This document shows positions 16,902 to 42,838 of a stretch of DNA of 42,838 bases, piece after piece. The translations under genes were made by a program, and so were the position numbers. Source of the stretch: Paeniroseomonas aquatica. Its GTDB lineage: Bacteria > Pseudomonadota > Alphaproteobacteria > Acetobacterales > Acetobacteraceae. Position 1 is the first letter of the stretch. Each line of letters opens with the position of its first letter. The notes under the pieces were generated by a model. It saw only the letters and a program-made list of their open reading frames with translations, searched no databases and was not told where the DNA came from. The stretch lies in contig NZ_JAUFPN010000102.1 of NCBI RefSeq assembly GCF_030409335.1, positions 1 to 42,838 on the forward strand, read 5' to 3'.

Positions 16902-17026
16902 GGCGGCAACGCCACAGTCGATCAAGGTTAAATCGAAATCACGTTTCTGTGGTTGCGGCGGCAGAATGCCACCCTTAGGTTGAAGCGCGGAGGCCAGTCC
17001 CACCCTGTGTCCATCCCGGTCCCTCG

Positions 17027-17275
17027 ATGCCCGAAAAGTCCAAACACAATGCCGCAGCCGTGGCGGAACCGTCGCCCGTATCCGAGCGTAAAGATCCGAT
17101 GTTGATCGCGATGCCGACACCCCCGCAGCCTCCGCCGCATTTCGCGTCCTCGGACGATGCCGTCTTCGACGCCTGGCTCCGCCGGGCGCTGGTGCAGGCG
17201 CATGACAGCGTCCTGCAGGATCCGGTGCCGGAGCGCCTGCTCCGCATCCTGCAGACCCCGTCGCAGAACTCCTGA
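17027..17275 (+). CDS. nepR: NepR-type anti-sigma factor
   Basis: The 82-residue product ends in the NepR signature. The helix DAWLRRALVQAHDSVLQDPVPERLLRIL matches the two sigma-binding helices joined by a DPVP turn. In the alphaproteobacterial general stress response, NepR holds EcfG inactive until phosphorylated PhyR sequesters NepR. The first 24 residues are low-complexity. A start at ATG 17099 (58 residues) matches the usual NepR length better and would leave an EcfG-like promoter element (17065-17090) in the leader. The EcfG-like sigma gene lies 16 bases beyond the stop but on the opposite strand, which is unusual. No phyR lies in the window. Confidence 0.85.
   Translation: MPEKSKHNAAAVAEPSPVSERKDPMLIAMPTPPQPPPHFASSDDAVFDAWLRRALVQAHDSVLQDPVPERLLRILQTPSQNS
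17065..17090 (+). promoter_or_regulatory. Candidate EcfG-type promoter of nepR
   Basis: GGAAC (17065-17069), 17 bases, then CGTA (17087-17090): one mismatch from the general-stress consensus. It lies within the longest nepR frame but just before the internal ATG at 17099. If real, nepR is autoregulated, its mRNA is nearly leaderless and the start is 17099. Confidence 0.35.
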
Positions 17276-17291
17276 GGCTGGGCGGCGGGCC

Positions 17292-17816
17292 CTAGGGGCT
17301 GCCACCCTCTTCCCCGGGCTCCAGGCCAATGCCCTGCCGGAGCGCCTCGCGGGCCCGCGACAGCCGCGACCGCAGCGTGCCCGGCGGCACGTTCAGGATG
17401 CGGGCGGCCTCGGAATAGTCGAGCCCCTCGACCACCACCAGCCAGAGCGCCTCGCGATGGATCGAGGCGAGCTGGCGGAAGGCATTCGCCACGTCCCGCA
17501 TGGCCTGACGTTCCTCCTGGCCGCCGGAGACGGCCGCTTCCGGCAGGGTCTCCGCCTCGAGGATCGGGCTGCGGGCGGCGCGCCGTGCCGCCGCGGCACG
17601 GGCATGACGGAGGATGGTGAAGAGCCAGGCGCGCAGGTTGGTGCCCGGCTCGAACTGAGCCTGGGCCGCGATGGCACGGAGCAGGGTTTCCTGCACCAGG
17701 TCGTCGGCTTGGTCCCCGCCCCGGGTCAGCACCCGGGCGAAGCGTCTCAGTCGGGGTATTTCGGCAGCGATCGCGGTCGCGAGTGCGTCCGGCCCGGGCG
17801 CCCTATCCTCCTGCAT
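17292..17816 (-). CDS. ecfG: EcfG-like ECF sigma factor (general stress response)
   Basis: The 174-residue product is an ECF sigma-70. Region 2 is ADDLVQETLLRAIAAQAQFEPGTNLRAWLFTILRH, with the FxPGTNLRAWLFTILR stretch characteristic of EcfG. Region 4 is LASIHREALWLVVVEGLDYSEAARILNVPPGTLRSRLSRAREAL. EcfG-class factors recognise GGAAC-N16-18-CGTT and drive the general stress regulon under NepR-PhyR control. The adjoining nepR gene strongly supports this assignment. The start at 17816 has AGAGGGGG about 13 bases upstream, a loose fit. No GGAAC-CGTT element lies upstream of the gene itself in the 182-base gap, so self-activation is not apparent. Confidence 0.88.
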   Translation of the reverse strand: MQEDRAPGPDALATAIAAEIPRLRRFARVLTRGGDQADDLVQETLLRAIAAQAQFEPGTNLRAWLFTILRHARAAAARRAARSPILEAETLPEAAVSGGQEERQAMRDVANAFRQLASIHREALWLVVVEGLDYSEAARILNVPPGTLRSRLSRAREALRQGIGLEPGEEGGSP

Positions 17817-38355: not shown

Positions 38356-38751
38356 ATGCGCATGACCAGCGATCGTCTCGAGGAAGGCAAGCGGCGCCGC
38401 GCCGAGGTCATCGGCCAGGGGCGGCACGATGCGGCGATGCAGGCGGCGACCGACTTCGACCTGCCCTTCCAGGAGCTGGCGCTGCGCTACTGCTGGGGCG
38501 AGGTCTGGGGCCGCCCCGGGCTCGACCGCCGGACCCGCAGCCTGGTCAACCTCGGCATGCTGATCGCCCTGGGCAGGCCGAACGAGCTGCGGATCCACCT
38601 CCGCGGCGCCCTGACCAATGGCGCCACCCGGGCGGAGATCCAGGAGGTCCTGCTGCAGAGCTGCGTCTATTGCGGCGTGCCCGCGGCCGGCGAGGCCTTC
38701 GGCATCGCCCGGGAGGTGCTCGCCGAAGCCGAGTTCGCCGGGGCGCGCTAG
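38356..38751 (+). CDS. Carboxymuconolactone decarboxylase-family protein
   Basis: The 131-residue protein is a CMD/AhpD-like all-helical protein: LALRYCWGEVWGRPGLDRRTRSLVNLGMLIALGRPNELRIHLRGALTNGATRAEIQEVLLQ then YCGVPAAGEAF. The family contains the protocatechuate-pathway decarboxylase PcaC; this member matches PcaC pattern better than AhpD, as the CxxC of AhpD is absent. No other pca genes are near. ATG 38356 or 38362 can start. A GC hairpin follows. Confidence 0.9.
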   Translation: MRMTSDRLEEGKRRRAEVIGQGRHDAAMQAATDFDLPFQELALRYCWGEVWGRPGLDRRTRSLVNLGMLIALGRPNELRIHLRGALTNGATRAEIQEVLLQSCVYCGVPAAGEAFGIAREVLAEAEFAGAR

Positions 38752-38761
38752 CTGGCCCCGG

Positions 38762-38787
38762 CCCTGCCTGCGGTCGCGCAGGCGGGG
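38762..38787 (+). terminator. Strong GC hairpin after the CMD-family gene
   Basis: CCCTGCCTGCG (38762-38772), loop GTCG, CGCAGGCGGGG (38777-38787) pair over 11 bp with one G-U. It sits 10 bases beyond the stop codon but has no U-tract. Its last bases coincide with the -35 box of the promoter that follows. Confidence 0.5.
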
Positions 38788-38811
38788 AACTGTCCGCGCC
38801 ACCGATACGTT
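38786..38811 (+). promoter_or_regulatory. EcfG-consensus promoter of the KaiC-like/histidine kinase operon
   Basis: GGAAC (38786-38790), 17 bases, CGTT (38808-38811): a full match to the alphaproteobacterial general-stress promoter GGAAC-N16-18-CGTT. The predicted transcription start is about 38818, leaving a leader of about 145 bases before the KaiC-like ATG. The cognate sigma factor candidate is encoded at 17292-17816. Confidence 0.75.
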
Positions 38812-38964
38812 CTGCGGCGGTAGAACCCCCGGGGATCCGTCTCCGCCGAATGCGTGCAATCCCACTGATTTTTCCCGTCATGGTTGTGTTATCCTGGGGC
38901 AGGAACATGCTGGGGAAGACTCGGGCGCTCGACCAGGCGATCCTGCCTGGCGCAGGGAGCAATG

Positions 38965-40491
38965 ATGGCTGACCCGCAGCAGAGGGCGACGACGCCCGAA
39001 GACGATCCCCCCCGCATATCGACCGGCAGCGCAGGGCTCGACGACATCCTCGGCGGTGGCGTCGACGCCGACCGCCTCTACCTGGTGGAGGGCCGCCCCG
39101 GCGCCGGCAAAACCACCCTGGCGCTGCAATTCCTCTTCGCCGGCCTCGCCCGGCACGAGACGGTCCTGTACATCTCCCTGTCCGAGACCGAGCGCGAGCT
39201 GCGCCTGGTGGCGAAGCGCCACGGCTGGAGCCTCGACGGGATCGCGGTCTTCGAGCTGGTCCCGCCCGAGGCCAGCCTCGATCCCAACCGGGAGCTGACG
39301 GTCTTCCATCCCGCCGAGATGGAGTTGAGCGAGACCACCCAGATGGTCTTCGACCGGGTCGCCGCGCTGAACCCGTCCCGCATCGTCTTCGACAGCCTGT
39401 CCGAGCTGCGGCTGCTGGCGCAGAATTCGCTGCGCTACCGCCGGCAGATCCTGGCGCTGAAGCATTTCTTCACCGGCCGGTGCTGCACCGTGCTGATGCT
39501 GGACGACATGTCCTCCAAGGCGGACGACCTGCAGCTGCACTCCATCGCCCATGGCGTGGTGCTGCTCGAGCAGGTCGCGCTCGACTACGGCGGCGAGCGC
39601 CGGCGGCTGCGGGTGGTGAAGATGCGCGGCATGCCCTTCCGCGGCGGCTTCCACGACTTCACCATCCGGCGCGGCGGGCTCGAGATCTATCCGCGCCTGG
39701 TCGCCGCCGAGCACCGGCAGGAGGTCGCCACCGCCAAGGTCTCGAGCGGCCGCGCCGAGCTGGATGCGATGGTCGGCGGCGGGCTGGAGCGCGGCAGCAG
39801 CGCGCTGCTGCTGGGCGCCGCCGGGGTCGGCAAGTCCTCGGTCGCGCTGACCTATGCCATCGCCGCCGCAGAGCGCGGCGAGAAAACGGTCTTCTACGCC
39901 TTCGACGAGGGCCGGGCGACCATCCTCTCCCGCTGCGCGGCGCTCGGCCTGCCGCTGCAGGACGCCCTCGACGCCGGGCTGATCCACATCCAGCAGATCG
40001 ACCCGGCCGAGCTCTCCCCCGGCGAATTCGTCCACCTGGTCCGCCAGGCGGTGACCCGGGACGGCGCCCGGATCGTCATCATCGACAGCCTGAACGGCTA
40101 CCTCAGCGCCATGCCGGACGAGCGCTTCCTGATCCTGCAGATGCACGAGCTGCTGAGCTACCTGAACCAGCTCGGTGTGCTCACCATCCTGGTGCTGGCG
40201 CAGCACGGGCTGGTCGGGCCGATGCAGACGCCGATCGACATCAGCTACCTCAGCGACGCGGTGCTGATGCTGCGCTACTTCGAGTTCGAGGGCTCGGTGC
40301 GCCGCGCCCTGTCGGTGGTGAAGAAGCGCAGCGGCGCCCACGAACGCTGGATCCGCGAATTCCGCCTGAGCGGCCGCGGCCTCGCCATCGGCCCGCCGCT
40401 GCAGCAGTTCAGCGGCATCTTCACCGGCACGCCGGTCTATACCGGCACCCGCACGCCGCTGCTCGCCGATGACGACAGTGCTGACGGGTAG
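38965..40491 (+). CDS. KaiC-like two-domain RecA-superfamily ATPase
   Basis: This 508-residue protein carries two KaiC domains. Domain 1 (about 15-245) opens ISTGSAGLDDILGGGVDADRLY with Walker A GRPGAGKTT (Lys49), SLSETERELRLVAKRHGW and Walker B IVFDSLSEL. Domain 2 (about 255-475) has Walker A GAAGVGKSS (Lys290), YAFDEGRATIL and Walker B IVIIDSLNGYL. KaiC relatives outside cyanobacteria act in stress adaptation and timing without KaiA. The Ser-Thr phosphorylation pair of cyanobacterial KaiC is not obvious. ATG 38965 is preferred because GGAG lies 5 bases before it. It overlaps the histidine kinase gene by 23 bases. Confidence 0.93.
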   Translation: MADPQQRATTPEDDPPRISTGSAGLDDILGGGVDADRLYLVEGRPGAGKTTLALQFLFAGLARHETVLYISLSETERELRLVAKRHGWSLDGIAVFELVPPEASLDPNRELTVFHPAEMELSETTQMVFDRVAALNPSRIVFDSLSELRLLAQNSLRYRRQILALKHFFTGRCCTVLMLDDMSSKADDLQLHSIAHGVVLLEQVALDYGGERRRLRVVKMRGMPFRGGFHDFTIRRGGLEIYPRLVAAEHRQEVATAKVSSGRAELDAMVGGGLERGSSALLLGAAGVGKSSVALTYAIAAAERGEKTVFYAFDEGRATILSRCAALGLPLQDALDAGLIHIQQIDPAELSPGEFVHLVRQAVTRDGARIVIIDSLNGYLSAMPDERFLILQMHELLSYLNQLGVLTILVLAQHGLVGPMQTPIDISYLSDAVLMLRYFEFEGSVRRALSVVKKRSGAHERWIREFRLSGRGLAIGPPLQQFSGIFTGTPVYTGTRTPLLADDDSADG

Positions 40492-42151
40492 GGCGCGGGG
40501 CGCGCGGGTCCTGGTGCTCGCCCCCACCGGCCGGGACGGCCCCGCCTCGGCCGAGCTGCTGCGCCGCGCCGGGCTCGATGCCGGCGTCTGCGACAGCCTG
40601 GACTGCCTGGTCGCCTGCCTCGAGGCCGGCGCCGAGGCGGTCTTCGTCGCCGAGGAGGCGCTGCACCGCCAGCCGATCGAGCCGCTGGTCCGCTGGGTCG
40701 AGGACCAGCCGCCCTGGTCCGACATGCCCTTCGTCGTCCTGACCAGCCATCGCCAGCAGCCCGTGGTGGTGGCCGAGCGCGGCCGGCTGGTGGGCGCGCT
40801 GCGCAACGTCTCCCTGCTCGAGCGGCCGGTGCAGACCCTGACGCTGACCACCACCATCCAGGCCGCGGTGCGCGCCCGGCGCCGGCAATACGAGGTGCGG
40901 GCGCATCTCGCCGCCGGCGAGAGCGCGGCGCGCCACCTCGAGGAGCAGGTCATCGCCCGCACCCGGGAGCTGGAGGCGGCCAATGCCGCGCTCCGGGCGC
41001 AGATCGCCGAGCGCGAGCGGGTCGAGGAATCGCTCCGCCACGCCCAGCGCATCGAGGCGATCGGCCAGCTCACCGGCGGCGTGGCGCACGACTTCAACAA
41101 CCTGCTGATGGTCATCTCGGGCGGGCTCGACATGCTGGGCCGGCAGAAGGACCCGGCGCGGCAGCGGCGGCTGATGGACGGCATGCGCCAGGCGGCCGGG
41201 CGCGGCGCGGCGCTGACCCGCCAGCTGCTGGCCTTCTCCCGCCGCCAGGCGCTGCAGGCGGAACCGGTGGACCTGCGCCGGCAGATCGGCTCGATGCGCG
41301 AATTGCTCGACCGCAGCCTGAGCGGCGACGTGCACGTGGCGCTCGACTTCGGCCTCGGGCTCTGGCCGGTCGAGGTCGACCCGGGCGAGCTGGAGCTGGT
41401 GATCCTGAACCTCGCGGTGAATGCCCGCGACGCCATGCCCGAGGGCGGCACCATCAGCATCCGCGCCAGCAACCTGGCCGGCTGGGACGCCGACGGGCTG
41501 CACGGCGACTTCGTCCGCCTGGCGGTGATCGACACCGGCACCGGCATGCCGCCCGAGGTCGTCGCCCGGGTCTTCGAGCCCTTCTTCACCACCAAGGACA
41601 TCGGCAAGGGCTCTGGCCTCGGCCTGGCGCAGGTCTATGGCTTCGCCCGGCAATCCGGCGGCACCGTGCGGATCGACACCGCGGTCGGCCGCGGCACCAC
41701 CATCGAGCTGCTGCTGCCGCGCTCGGCCCGGCCGCCGGCGGCCGAGGTGCGGGCCACGGCCGAGCCGCGCCGGGTCGAGGCGCCGGGCAGCCGCGGCCAT
41801 GTGCTGCTGGTCGAGGACGACGACGAGGTCGCCGCCCTGGTCGGGCAGATGCTCGGCGAGCTGGGCTTCGAGGCGACCCGGGCGGCCAGCGCCGCGGCGG
41901 CGCTCGGGGCGCTGGCCGATGGCCGGGCCATCGACCTGGTCTTCTCCGACGTGCTGATGCCGGGGGGGATGAACGGGGTGGAGCTGGTCCGCGAGGTGCG
42001 CCGCCGCCGTCCGGAACTGCCGGTGGTGCTGACCACCGCCTATGCCGGCACCGCGAAGCACGACGCCGAGGCGGAGGGCATCGCCCTGCTGCCCAAGCCC
42101 TACCGGCTGGACGAACTGGCGGCGATCACCCGGGCGGCGCTCGGCCGGTGA
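40469..42151 (+). CDS. Hybrid sensor histidine kinase with N-terminal pseudo-receiver
   Basis: The 560-residue protein has four parts. First comes a receiver-like domain without the phospho-accepting Asp (about 12-130: RVLVLAPTGRDG, DMPFVVLTSHRQQP). Second is a coiled coil (about 140-195). The kinase core follows, with phospho-acceptor His207 (GGVAHDFNNLLMVISGG) and ATP-binding motifs LNLAVNARDAMP, DTGTGMP, FEPFFTTK and GSGLGLA. Last is a C-terminal receiver with acceptor Asp494 (VFSDVLMPG) and Lys in PKPY. No sensor or membrane segment is present, so input is cytosolic, probably the KaiC-like partner encoded by the overlapping gene. Confidence 0.94.
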   Translation: MTTVLTGRARGARVLVLAPTGRDGPASAELLRRAGLDAGVCDSLDCLVACLEAGAEAVFVAEEALHRQPIEPLVRWVEDQPPWSDMPFVVLTSHRQQPVVVAERGRLVGALRNVSLLERPVQTLTLTTTIQAAVRARRRQYEVRAHLAAGESAARHLEEQVIARTRELEAANAALRAQIAERERVEESLRHAQRIEAIGQLTGGVAHDFNNLLMVISGGLDMLGRQKDPARQRRLMDGMRQAAGRGAALTRQLLAFSRRQALQAEPVDLRRQIGSMRELLDRSLSGDVHVALDFGLGLWPVEVDPGELELVILNLAVNARDAMPEGGTISIRASNLAGWDADGLHGDFVRLAVIDTGTGMPPEVVARVFEPFFTTKDIGKGSGLGLAQVYGFARQSGGTVRIDTAVGRGTTIELLLPRSARPPAAEVRATAEPRRVEAPGSRGHVLLVEDDDEVAALVGQMLGELGFEATRAASAAAALGALADGRAIDLVFSDVLMPGGMNGVELVREVRRRRPELPVVLTTAYAGTAKHDAEAEGIALLPKPYRLDELAAITRAALGR

Positions 42152-42181: not shown

Positions 42182-42838
42182 ATGCCCCAAGCCGCCGACG
42201 CCGCCCCCGCCCCTGACCCCTTCGACATCGACCAGGCCTTCCGCCTGCTGCGCGAGGCCGTCGCGCCGCTGCCCAAGGCGGCGATGTTCGAGCTGCGCGA
42301 CCGCGGCCATGCCAGCCCCTTCGAGCAGCTGGTCGCGGCGCTGATCTCGGCCCGCACCCGGGACGAGACCACCACCCCGGTCTGCCTGCGGCTCTTTGCC
42401 GTGGCCCGCACCCCGGCGGCGATGGCGGCGCTGGCGGAGGAGGCGCTGGTCGGCCTGCTGCACGGCGCCACCTTCCCCGAGCCCAAGGCGCGCGACATCC
42501 TGGCGCTGTCCCGGAGCATCGCCGCGGCGGGCACGGTACCCGACACGGCGGAGGGGCTGATGGCGCTGCGGGGCGTCGGCCCGAAGATCGCGGCGCTGAC
42601 GCTCGGCGTCGGCTTCGGGGTGCCGGCGATCTCGGTCGACATCCACGTGCATCGCATCGTCAACCGCTGGGGCTATGTGGCGGCCGGCACGCCGGAGCGG
42701 ACCATGCGGGCGCTGGTGGCGGTGCTGCCGGAGCGCTACTGGATAGAGCTCAACGAGAGGCTGGTGCCCTTCGGCAAGGCCATCTGCACCGGGGAGAGGC
42801 CGCGCTGCTCGGGCTGCCTGCTGCGGCGGCTGTGCCGG
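42182..42838 (+). CDS. Endonuclease III-like DNA glycosylase (3' end outside window)
   Basis: An open frame of 219 codons reaches the right edge without a stop. It has FEQLVAALISARTRDETT, the helix-hairpin-helix LRGVGPKIAALTL with catalytic Lys, the Asp in SVDIHVHRIVNRWGY, and a C-terminal iron-sulfur set C-x6-C-x2-C-x5-C (CTGERPRCSGCLLRRLC). Nth enzymes remove oxidised pyrimidines. It begins about 30 bases after the kinase gene and may be in the same operon. It is a second Nth-like gene beside 27667-28395, and its ARTRD is closer to the canonical AQTTD. Confidence 0.93.
   Translation, partial: MPQAADAAPAPDPFDIDQAFRLLREAVAPLPKAAMFELRDRGHASPFEQLVAALISARTRDETTTPVCLRLFAVARTPAAMAALAEEALVGLLHGATFPEPKARDILALSRSIAAAGTVPDTAEGLMALRGVGPKIAALTLGVGFGVPAISVDIHVHRIVNRWGYVAAGTPERTMRALVAVLPERYWIELNERLVPFGKAICTGERPRCSGCLLRRLCR

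Follow-up and report, generated by a model that had tools for sequence, protein, structure and literature searches.

Upon stress, phosphorylated PhyR binds NepR and frees EcfG, the sigma factor of the alphaproteobacterial general stress response; this sequence of events has been established in species other than the one considered here. The promoters of EcfG (ECF15) regulons are built from the boxes GGAAC and CGTT. The consensus is given with a spacer of 16 nt in the consulted portions of two papers (PMC3892343, PMC7083833), and a variant, GGAAC-N17-20-GTT, in the consulted portion of a third (PMC6599016). The locus described below resembles such regulons in its two boxes and their 16- or 17-nt spacer, in its setting within a genome that has PhyR, EcfG and NepR, and in the occurrence of OsmC, LigD, CsbD and PRC-barrel genes behind copies of the same motif. 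It differs from them in its target, a KaiC-like ATPase and a kinase, and in that the core stress locus of the host's family, where nepR follows ecfG, is devoid of the consensus.

Legionella offers a precedent for kai genes under a stress sigma factor, RpoS in the case of its kaiBC; there, however, the host is a gammaproteobacterium, the sigma factor belongs to another class and kaiB is included. A stress role of Legionella KaiC2 is mentioned in the portion of PMC5520375 consulted. The clock KaiC of cyanobacteria shares with the present protein the double KaiC domain, both P-loops and a serine at the position of S431, whereas in our protein tyrosine stands in place of Thr432, the scores lie far under those of circadian models and no KaiB was found in the genome. 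The nearest described system seems, by analogy, to be kaiC2-kaiR2 of Methylorubrum (Methylobacterium) extorquens AM1. The likeness, drawn from published descriptions, is that a KaiC-family gene lies beside a single partner gene and kaiB is missing; the difference is that 28 of 30 Methylobacterium loci are without the promoter motif. According to the consulted part of PMC8069551, AM1 KaiC2 is phosphorylated on a single serine and affects UV and heat resistance as well as leaf colonisation; the same text treats PhyR one section before KaiC2 and, in that part, draws no link to EcfG or PhyR. No report of EcfG control of a kaiC gene was found in the literature searched, which included the consulted portions of PMC3892343, PMC6599016, PMC7083833, PMC5520375, PMC12573535 and PMC8069551; such a link could exist in transcriptome tables, because the primary Bradyrhizobium and Methylorubrum EcfG transcriptomes fell outside the coverage of the search.

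The stretch of DNA analysed here, referred to as the window, comprises 42,838 nucleotides of Paeniroseomonas aquatica. A preliminary description of it had placed a GGAAC-N17-CGTT element, agreeing with the EcfG consensus at all conserved positions, in the gap before a KaiC-like gene. We find this element as an exact match on the forward strand at 38786-38811, reading GGAAC-TGTCCGCGCCACCGATA-CGTT, with the -35 box GGAAC at 38786-38790, the -10 box CGTT at 38808-38811 and a spacer of 17 nt, within the 16-17 nt of EcfG-type promoters. A scan of both strands of the whole window gives no second exact match, and similar sites occupy like positions in relatives. The putative promoter sits in a 210-nt gap between a CMD-domain gene that ends at 38751 and the KaiC-like ATG at 38962, which lies 150 nt beyond the end of CGTT; a transcript would be expected to start about 5-8 nt past the -10 box. 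A scan of 38700-39020 returned neither a sigma-70 promoter-like nor a terminator-like match. Over the whole window, 0.15 matches with spacer 17 are expected by chance, rising to 0.77 when spacers of 14-20 are allowed, and at least one match occurred in 12 of 100 shuffles in the first case and in 52 of 100 in the second. Since 12 shuffles in 100 also contain one, the window match by itself is only suggestive. Together with its recurrence, described below, the match makes it very probable that an EcfG-class promoter operates here, ahead of the operon that follows.

The first gene of this operon (38962-40491, forward strand; a second possible ATG lies at 38965) encodes a protein of 509 aa with two KaiC/RecA-type domains (Pfam PF06745, E 1.1e-64; PDB KaiC 8zn5, E 4.4e-55), each with a P-loop, starting at residues 44 and 285. 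The word "clock", which the preliminary description had offered as one of two options for this protein, finds no support. The cut-offs of the circadian KaiC models TIGR02655 and PRK09302 are not reached (159.3 against 546.25 bits and 239.1 against 408 bits), and the Ser-Thr phosphorylation pair of circadian KaiC is replaced by S428-Y429, which aligns with S431/T432. Likewise, a search for KaiB returned no match to PF07689 in the host genome, which is 98.65% complete. The Ser-Tyr pair is present in 42 of the 62 rows of the protein alignment, another pair occurs in 2, and 18 could not be read by the residue pattern. Tyrosine at the second phosphosite is known from some KaiC3 proteins, as stated in the consulted portion of PMC5520375.

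The second gene (40469-42151, forward strand) overlaps the first by 23 nt and encodes a hybrid histidine kinase of 560 aa, whose layout, established from Pfam, motif positions and a structural model, consists of a receiver-like N-domain without the Asp, a coiled coil, HisKA (H207), HATPase_c and a receiver (D494). The N-terminal part had no match in a Pfam search at E 0.001. An AlphaFold model of residues 1-200, built on a 20-row alignment, reached a pLDDT of 88.5 and led Foldseek to receiver domains; as an Asp at residues 57-63 is present in none of the 20 rows, the modelled domain looks like a pseudo-receiver. The pairing of the two genes is nearly constant, a homologous kinase (45-81% identity) adjoining the KaiC-like gene in 69 of 71 relatives. 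The exceptions are locus L105, where there is no kinase within 1.5 kb up to the contig end, and an Acidobacteria locus, where the kinase match is partial (29% identity). Next after the kinase comes an HhH-GPD (endonuclease III-like) gene (42182-42838, forward strand; Pfam PF00730), cut by the contig end. A homologue holds the same place in 5 of 10 Acetobacterales loci, and it is possibly a third gene of the operon.

A search of a species-genome collection with the KaiC-like protein as query gave the 71 loci just mentioned. Over the 300 nt that precede the aligned start, a strict form of the motif (GGAAC-N16/17-CGTT) was found in 17 and a relaxed form (GGAAC-N16/17-NGTT) in 47 of the 70 usable loci; L112, where the contig begins at the gene, was left out. 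Against expectations obtained from shuffles, the strict form is present in 6 of 10 Acetobacterales loci (0.01 expected), 9 of 37 Bradyrhizobium loci (0.14) and 2 of 15 loci of Rhizobium and Neorhizobium types (0.02), and the relaxed form in 7 (0.07), 36 (0.38) and 3 (0.10), respectively, counts that include close relatives and are hence not independent. An even draw of 385 genomes across the class yielded 22 strong homologues in 20 genomes; among the 21 counted, the window being excluded, 6 had the strict form (0.05 expected) and 9 the relaxed form (0.12). Motifs with wrong spacing number 0/10 in Acetobacterales, 0/15 in the Rhizobium types and 0/21 in the class sample, and in Bradyrhizobium 3/37, slightly over the 0.81 expected. 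The mirrored motif is absent from all four groups, and relaxed matches 301-600 nt upstream number one in Bradyrhizobium, two in the Rhizobium types and none in Acetobacterales or the class sample. In the upstream alignment of the Acetobacterales the two boxes are conspicuous and the flanks align poorly. This recurrence removes most of the doubt about a chance match.

The expectation, voiced in the preliminary description, that the same element would precede the same gene elsewhere was thus borne out in Acetobacterales, Bradyrhizobium and the class-wide sample, and failed in 12 of the 15 Rhizobium-type loci and in Methylobacterium, where KaiC homologues occur in 94 of 99 genomes and where, of the 30 loci taken for the motif counts, none has the strict form and 2 have the relaxed one (0.20 expected). 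The motif is also absent from 3 of the 10 Acetobacterales loci. NepR was found wherever tested in the Rhizobium-type and Methylobacterium genomes. Mapped onto a 63-row tree of the protein, the motif must change state 12 times, and well-supported branches force at least 10 of these changes; in the clade of the window itself, starred on the tree, the motif is present in all 6 rows. Many Methylobacterium genomes (loci L269-L298) carry at least two KaiC paralogues, and given how few of these loci have the motif, the paralogues may answer to different cues.

The distribution of NepR provides a natural control. Among genomes with the KaiC-like locus, the motif is present in 26 of 54 that bear NepR and in 1 of 11 that lack it (Fisher p 0.02), with repeat genomes (G001, G002, G003, G005, G006, G007) counted once and G095 dropped along with L112. 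The sole NepR-less genome with the motif is a 75%-complete assembly, and its omission gives 0 of 10 (Fisher p 0.004). The other NepR-less genomes with a stated completeness are at 99-100%, apart from G118 at 85%; for genomes reached through named loci, a missing NepR could be an assembly gap because their completeness is not given. The NepR-less set includes two Xanthomonas genomes (L060, L062), whose kaiC-like/kinase operon lies without the motif and whose KaiC-like proteins are nested in the alphaproteobacterial clade. Their operon was probably acquired by transfer, and the absence of the motif is what one would expect if a transferred operon loses a promoter unreadable in its new host. A separate oddity is a record titled Mycobacterium sp. 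KBS0706 (L094), which has NepR and an operon of the alphaproteobacterial type, so that the organism name looks wrong.

The host genome encodes PhyR, EcfG and NepR. NepR scores above the Pfam cut-off once in the genome, on contig C105, where its gene adjoins two sigma genes and that of PhyR (259.1 bits against an NCBIfam cut-off of 240). The order there (L006, G000:C105) is phyR followed, divergently, by a sigma gene, ecfG and nepR, and it is the same elsewhere in the host's family (L179-L191). EcfG was named from its position beside NepR and PhyR and from its sigma domains, not from a curated model. The short divergent promoter region of this locus is without the EcfG consensus: among 12 genomes of the family, the phyR/ecfG/nepR locus has the exact site in none and lacks even a one-mismatch site in 11, so that autoregulation there, if any, uses another sequence. 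In 8 of the 12, TGATATTGA precedes the first sigma gene. Similarly, 6 of 8 Bradyrhizobium nepR loci show no site in the 3 kb covered, and the site at each of the other two matches on both strands.

The preliminary description was also right in substance in reporting NepR and an EcfG-like sigma factor within the window. The latter, an ECF sigma factor of 174 aa (17292-17816, reverse strand; Pfam sigma regions and PhyR_sigma2), is paralogous to the EcfG of this genome (37% identity; 42% to the sigma neighbour of EcfG) and has homologues 71-86% identical in 11 related genomes. Convergent with it, the pair spanning 17027-17816, is a gene for a small NepR-like protein of divergent sequence (17027-17275, forward strand, in an open frame at 16979-17275; the start may be the ATG at 17027, 17099 or 17111). 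The protein matches a lineage profile made from 7 NepR sequences, 5 of them distinct (E 8.4e-9), and misses the Pfam gathering score (16.2 against 25.7 bits). A NepR-like frame adjoins the sigma gene in 6 of 11 related loci (E 0.01 or better), and the two probably constitute an additional sigma/anti-sigma pair within the stress system.

Further copies of the motif are scattered through the host genome. With spacers from 15 to 18 there are 58, against 116 for the reversed pattern, that is, no bulk enrichment, and we therefore compared their positions relative to genes. Thirty of the 58 copies are intergenic, against 8 of 30 places of the reversed pattern, and 20 of the 58 are intergenic with a same-strand gene start within 200 nt, against 3 of 30 (p 0.02); this control is rough, because 30 of 118 places were examined and the gene caller, a custom one trained on ten window genes, gives 34% non-coding in the control loci against 8% in the window. 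Copies with spacer 16 or 17 tend to stand in such positions more often than those with 15 or 18 (15 of 33 against 5 of 25), with a p of only 0.055. Besides kaiC, 19 genes follow the motif, including those for PRC-barrel, OsmC, a LigD ligase, CsbD and a YflT match below cut-off; OsmC, CsbD and LigD belong to stress regulons. Four of the 19 are without any Pfam match, and several code for enzymes, glycosyltransferases among them, that have no obvious part in stress. For Sphingomonas melonis, the consulted portion of PMC6599016 names PRC-barrel and Ku genes as EcfG targets.

One could envision a genuine promoter that serves an ECF sigma factor other than EcfG, for example the one encoded in the window or the second sigma factor beside ecfG. 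The genome does contain several related ECF sigmas, the window factor is related in sequence to EcfG and its neighbour and has a NepR-like partner of its own, and at cut-off no NCBIfam model marks any of the three as EcfG. Against this, genes of the kind found in EcfG regulons lie behind the motif in the host genome, and across genomes the motif tracks the presence of NepR. We regard a different reader as possible, if somewhat unlikely; promoter overlap between sigma paralogues is itself possible, and such a reader would then be compatible with the role of EcfG that we favor.

A quite different proposal would make the element a palindromic transcription factor site (GGAAC...GTTCC) and no sigma promoter at all. 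Many Bradyrhizobium sites (L058-L117) indeed read GGAAC...GAGTTCC, which makes them EcfG-type on either strand, and relaxed antisense matches occur in 24 of 37 upstream regions in that genus, 3 of 10 in Acetobacterales, 0 of 15 in the Rhizobium types and 2 of 21 in the class sample, a result of the partial complementarity between the two boxes. Strict antisense matches are confined to one in the class sample, with none in the other three groups. The window site, however, reads CGTTCTG at its end and is without a match on the opposite strand, nine of the Bradyrhizobium sites show CGTT behind a 17-nt spacer, and the spacer varies by one base, a change tolerated by sigma factors and usually not by dimeric regulators. 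A palindromic operator is thus very unlikely. Mere coincidence is more improbable still: the shuffles do produce exact matches and the genome-wide copies are not in excess, but recurrence exceeds the shuffle expectation at least 30-fold in four of five groups (10-fold in Methylobacterium, 2 against 0.20 and none strict) and is complete in the window's own clade.

We consider it highly probable, therefore, that an EcfG-class promoter of the general stress response drives a two-gene operon for a KaiC-like ATPase and a hybrid histidine kinase. From what is directly observed (the promoter sequence, its recurrence, the gene order and the presence of PhyR, EcfG and NepR) we infer transcription from the site, its reading by EcfG and not by a paralogue, and all steps after translation. 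Under stress, PhyR would be phosphorylated and bind NepR, freeing EcfG; RNA polymerase with EcfG would read GGAAC-N17-CGTT and begin transcription just 3' of the site, and the two overlapping genes would be made together. The KaiC-like protein could then work as a phospho-switch powered by ATP, with S428 as the probable site, and determine how active the kinase is by way of the kinase's receiver-like N-domain; the kinase would relay the signal by phosphorelay. It is tempting to speculate, though we think it rather doubtful, that the pair times or brakes the general stress response: a phospho-cycle driven by ATP, in a protein made under EcfG, would gate the kinase, whose feedback onto PhyR would let alphaproteobacteria limit or pace the response by means of a KaiC module that needs no KaiB.

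Judged from sequence, the KaiC-like/kinase operon is very probably a new and testable member of a known regulon. KaiC relatives are widespread beyond cyanobacteria, few of them with a known cue, and a stress promoter that recurs before the genes supplies a definite input for one module of this kind. The shared switch ties the KaiC-like/kinase pair to the general stress response, a link that is easily testable, as the module occurs in manipulable genera such as Bradyrhizobium. In plant symbionts and leaf colonisers, this link would make a KaiC switch part of the stress response that they use.
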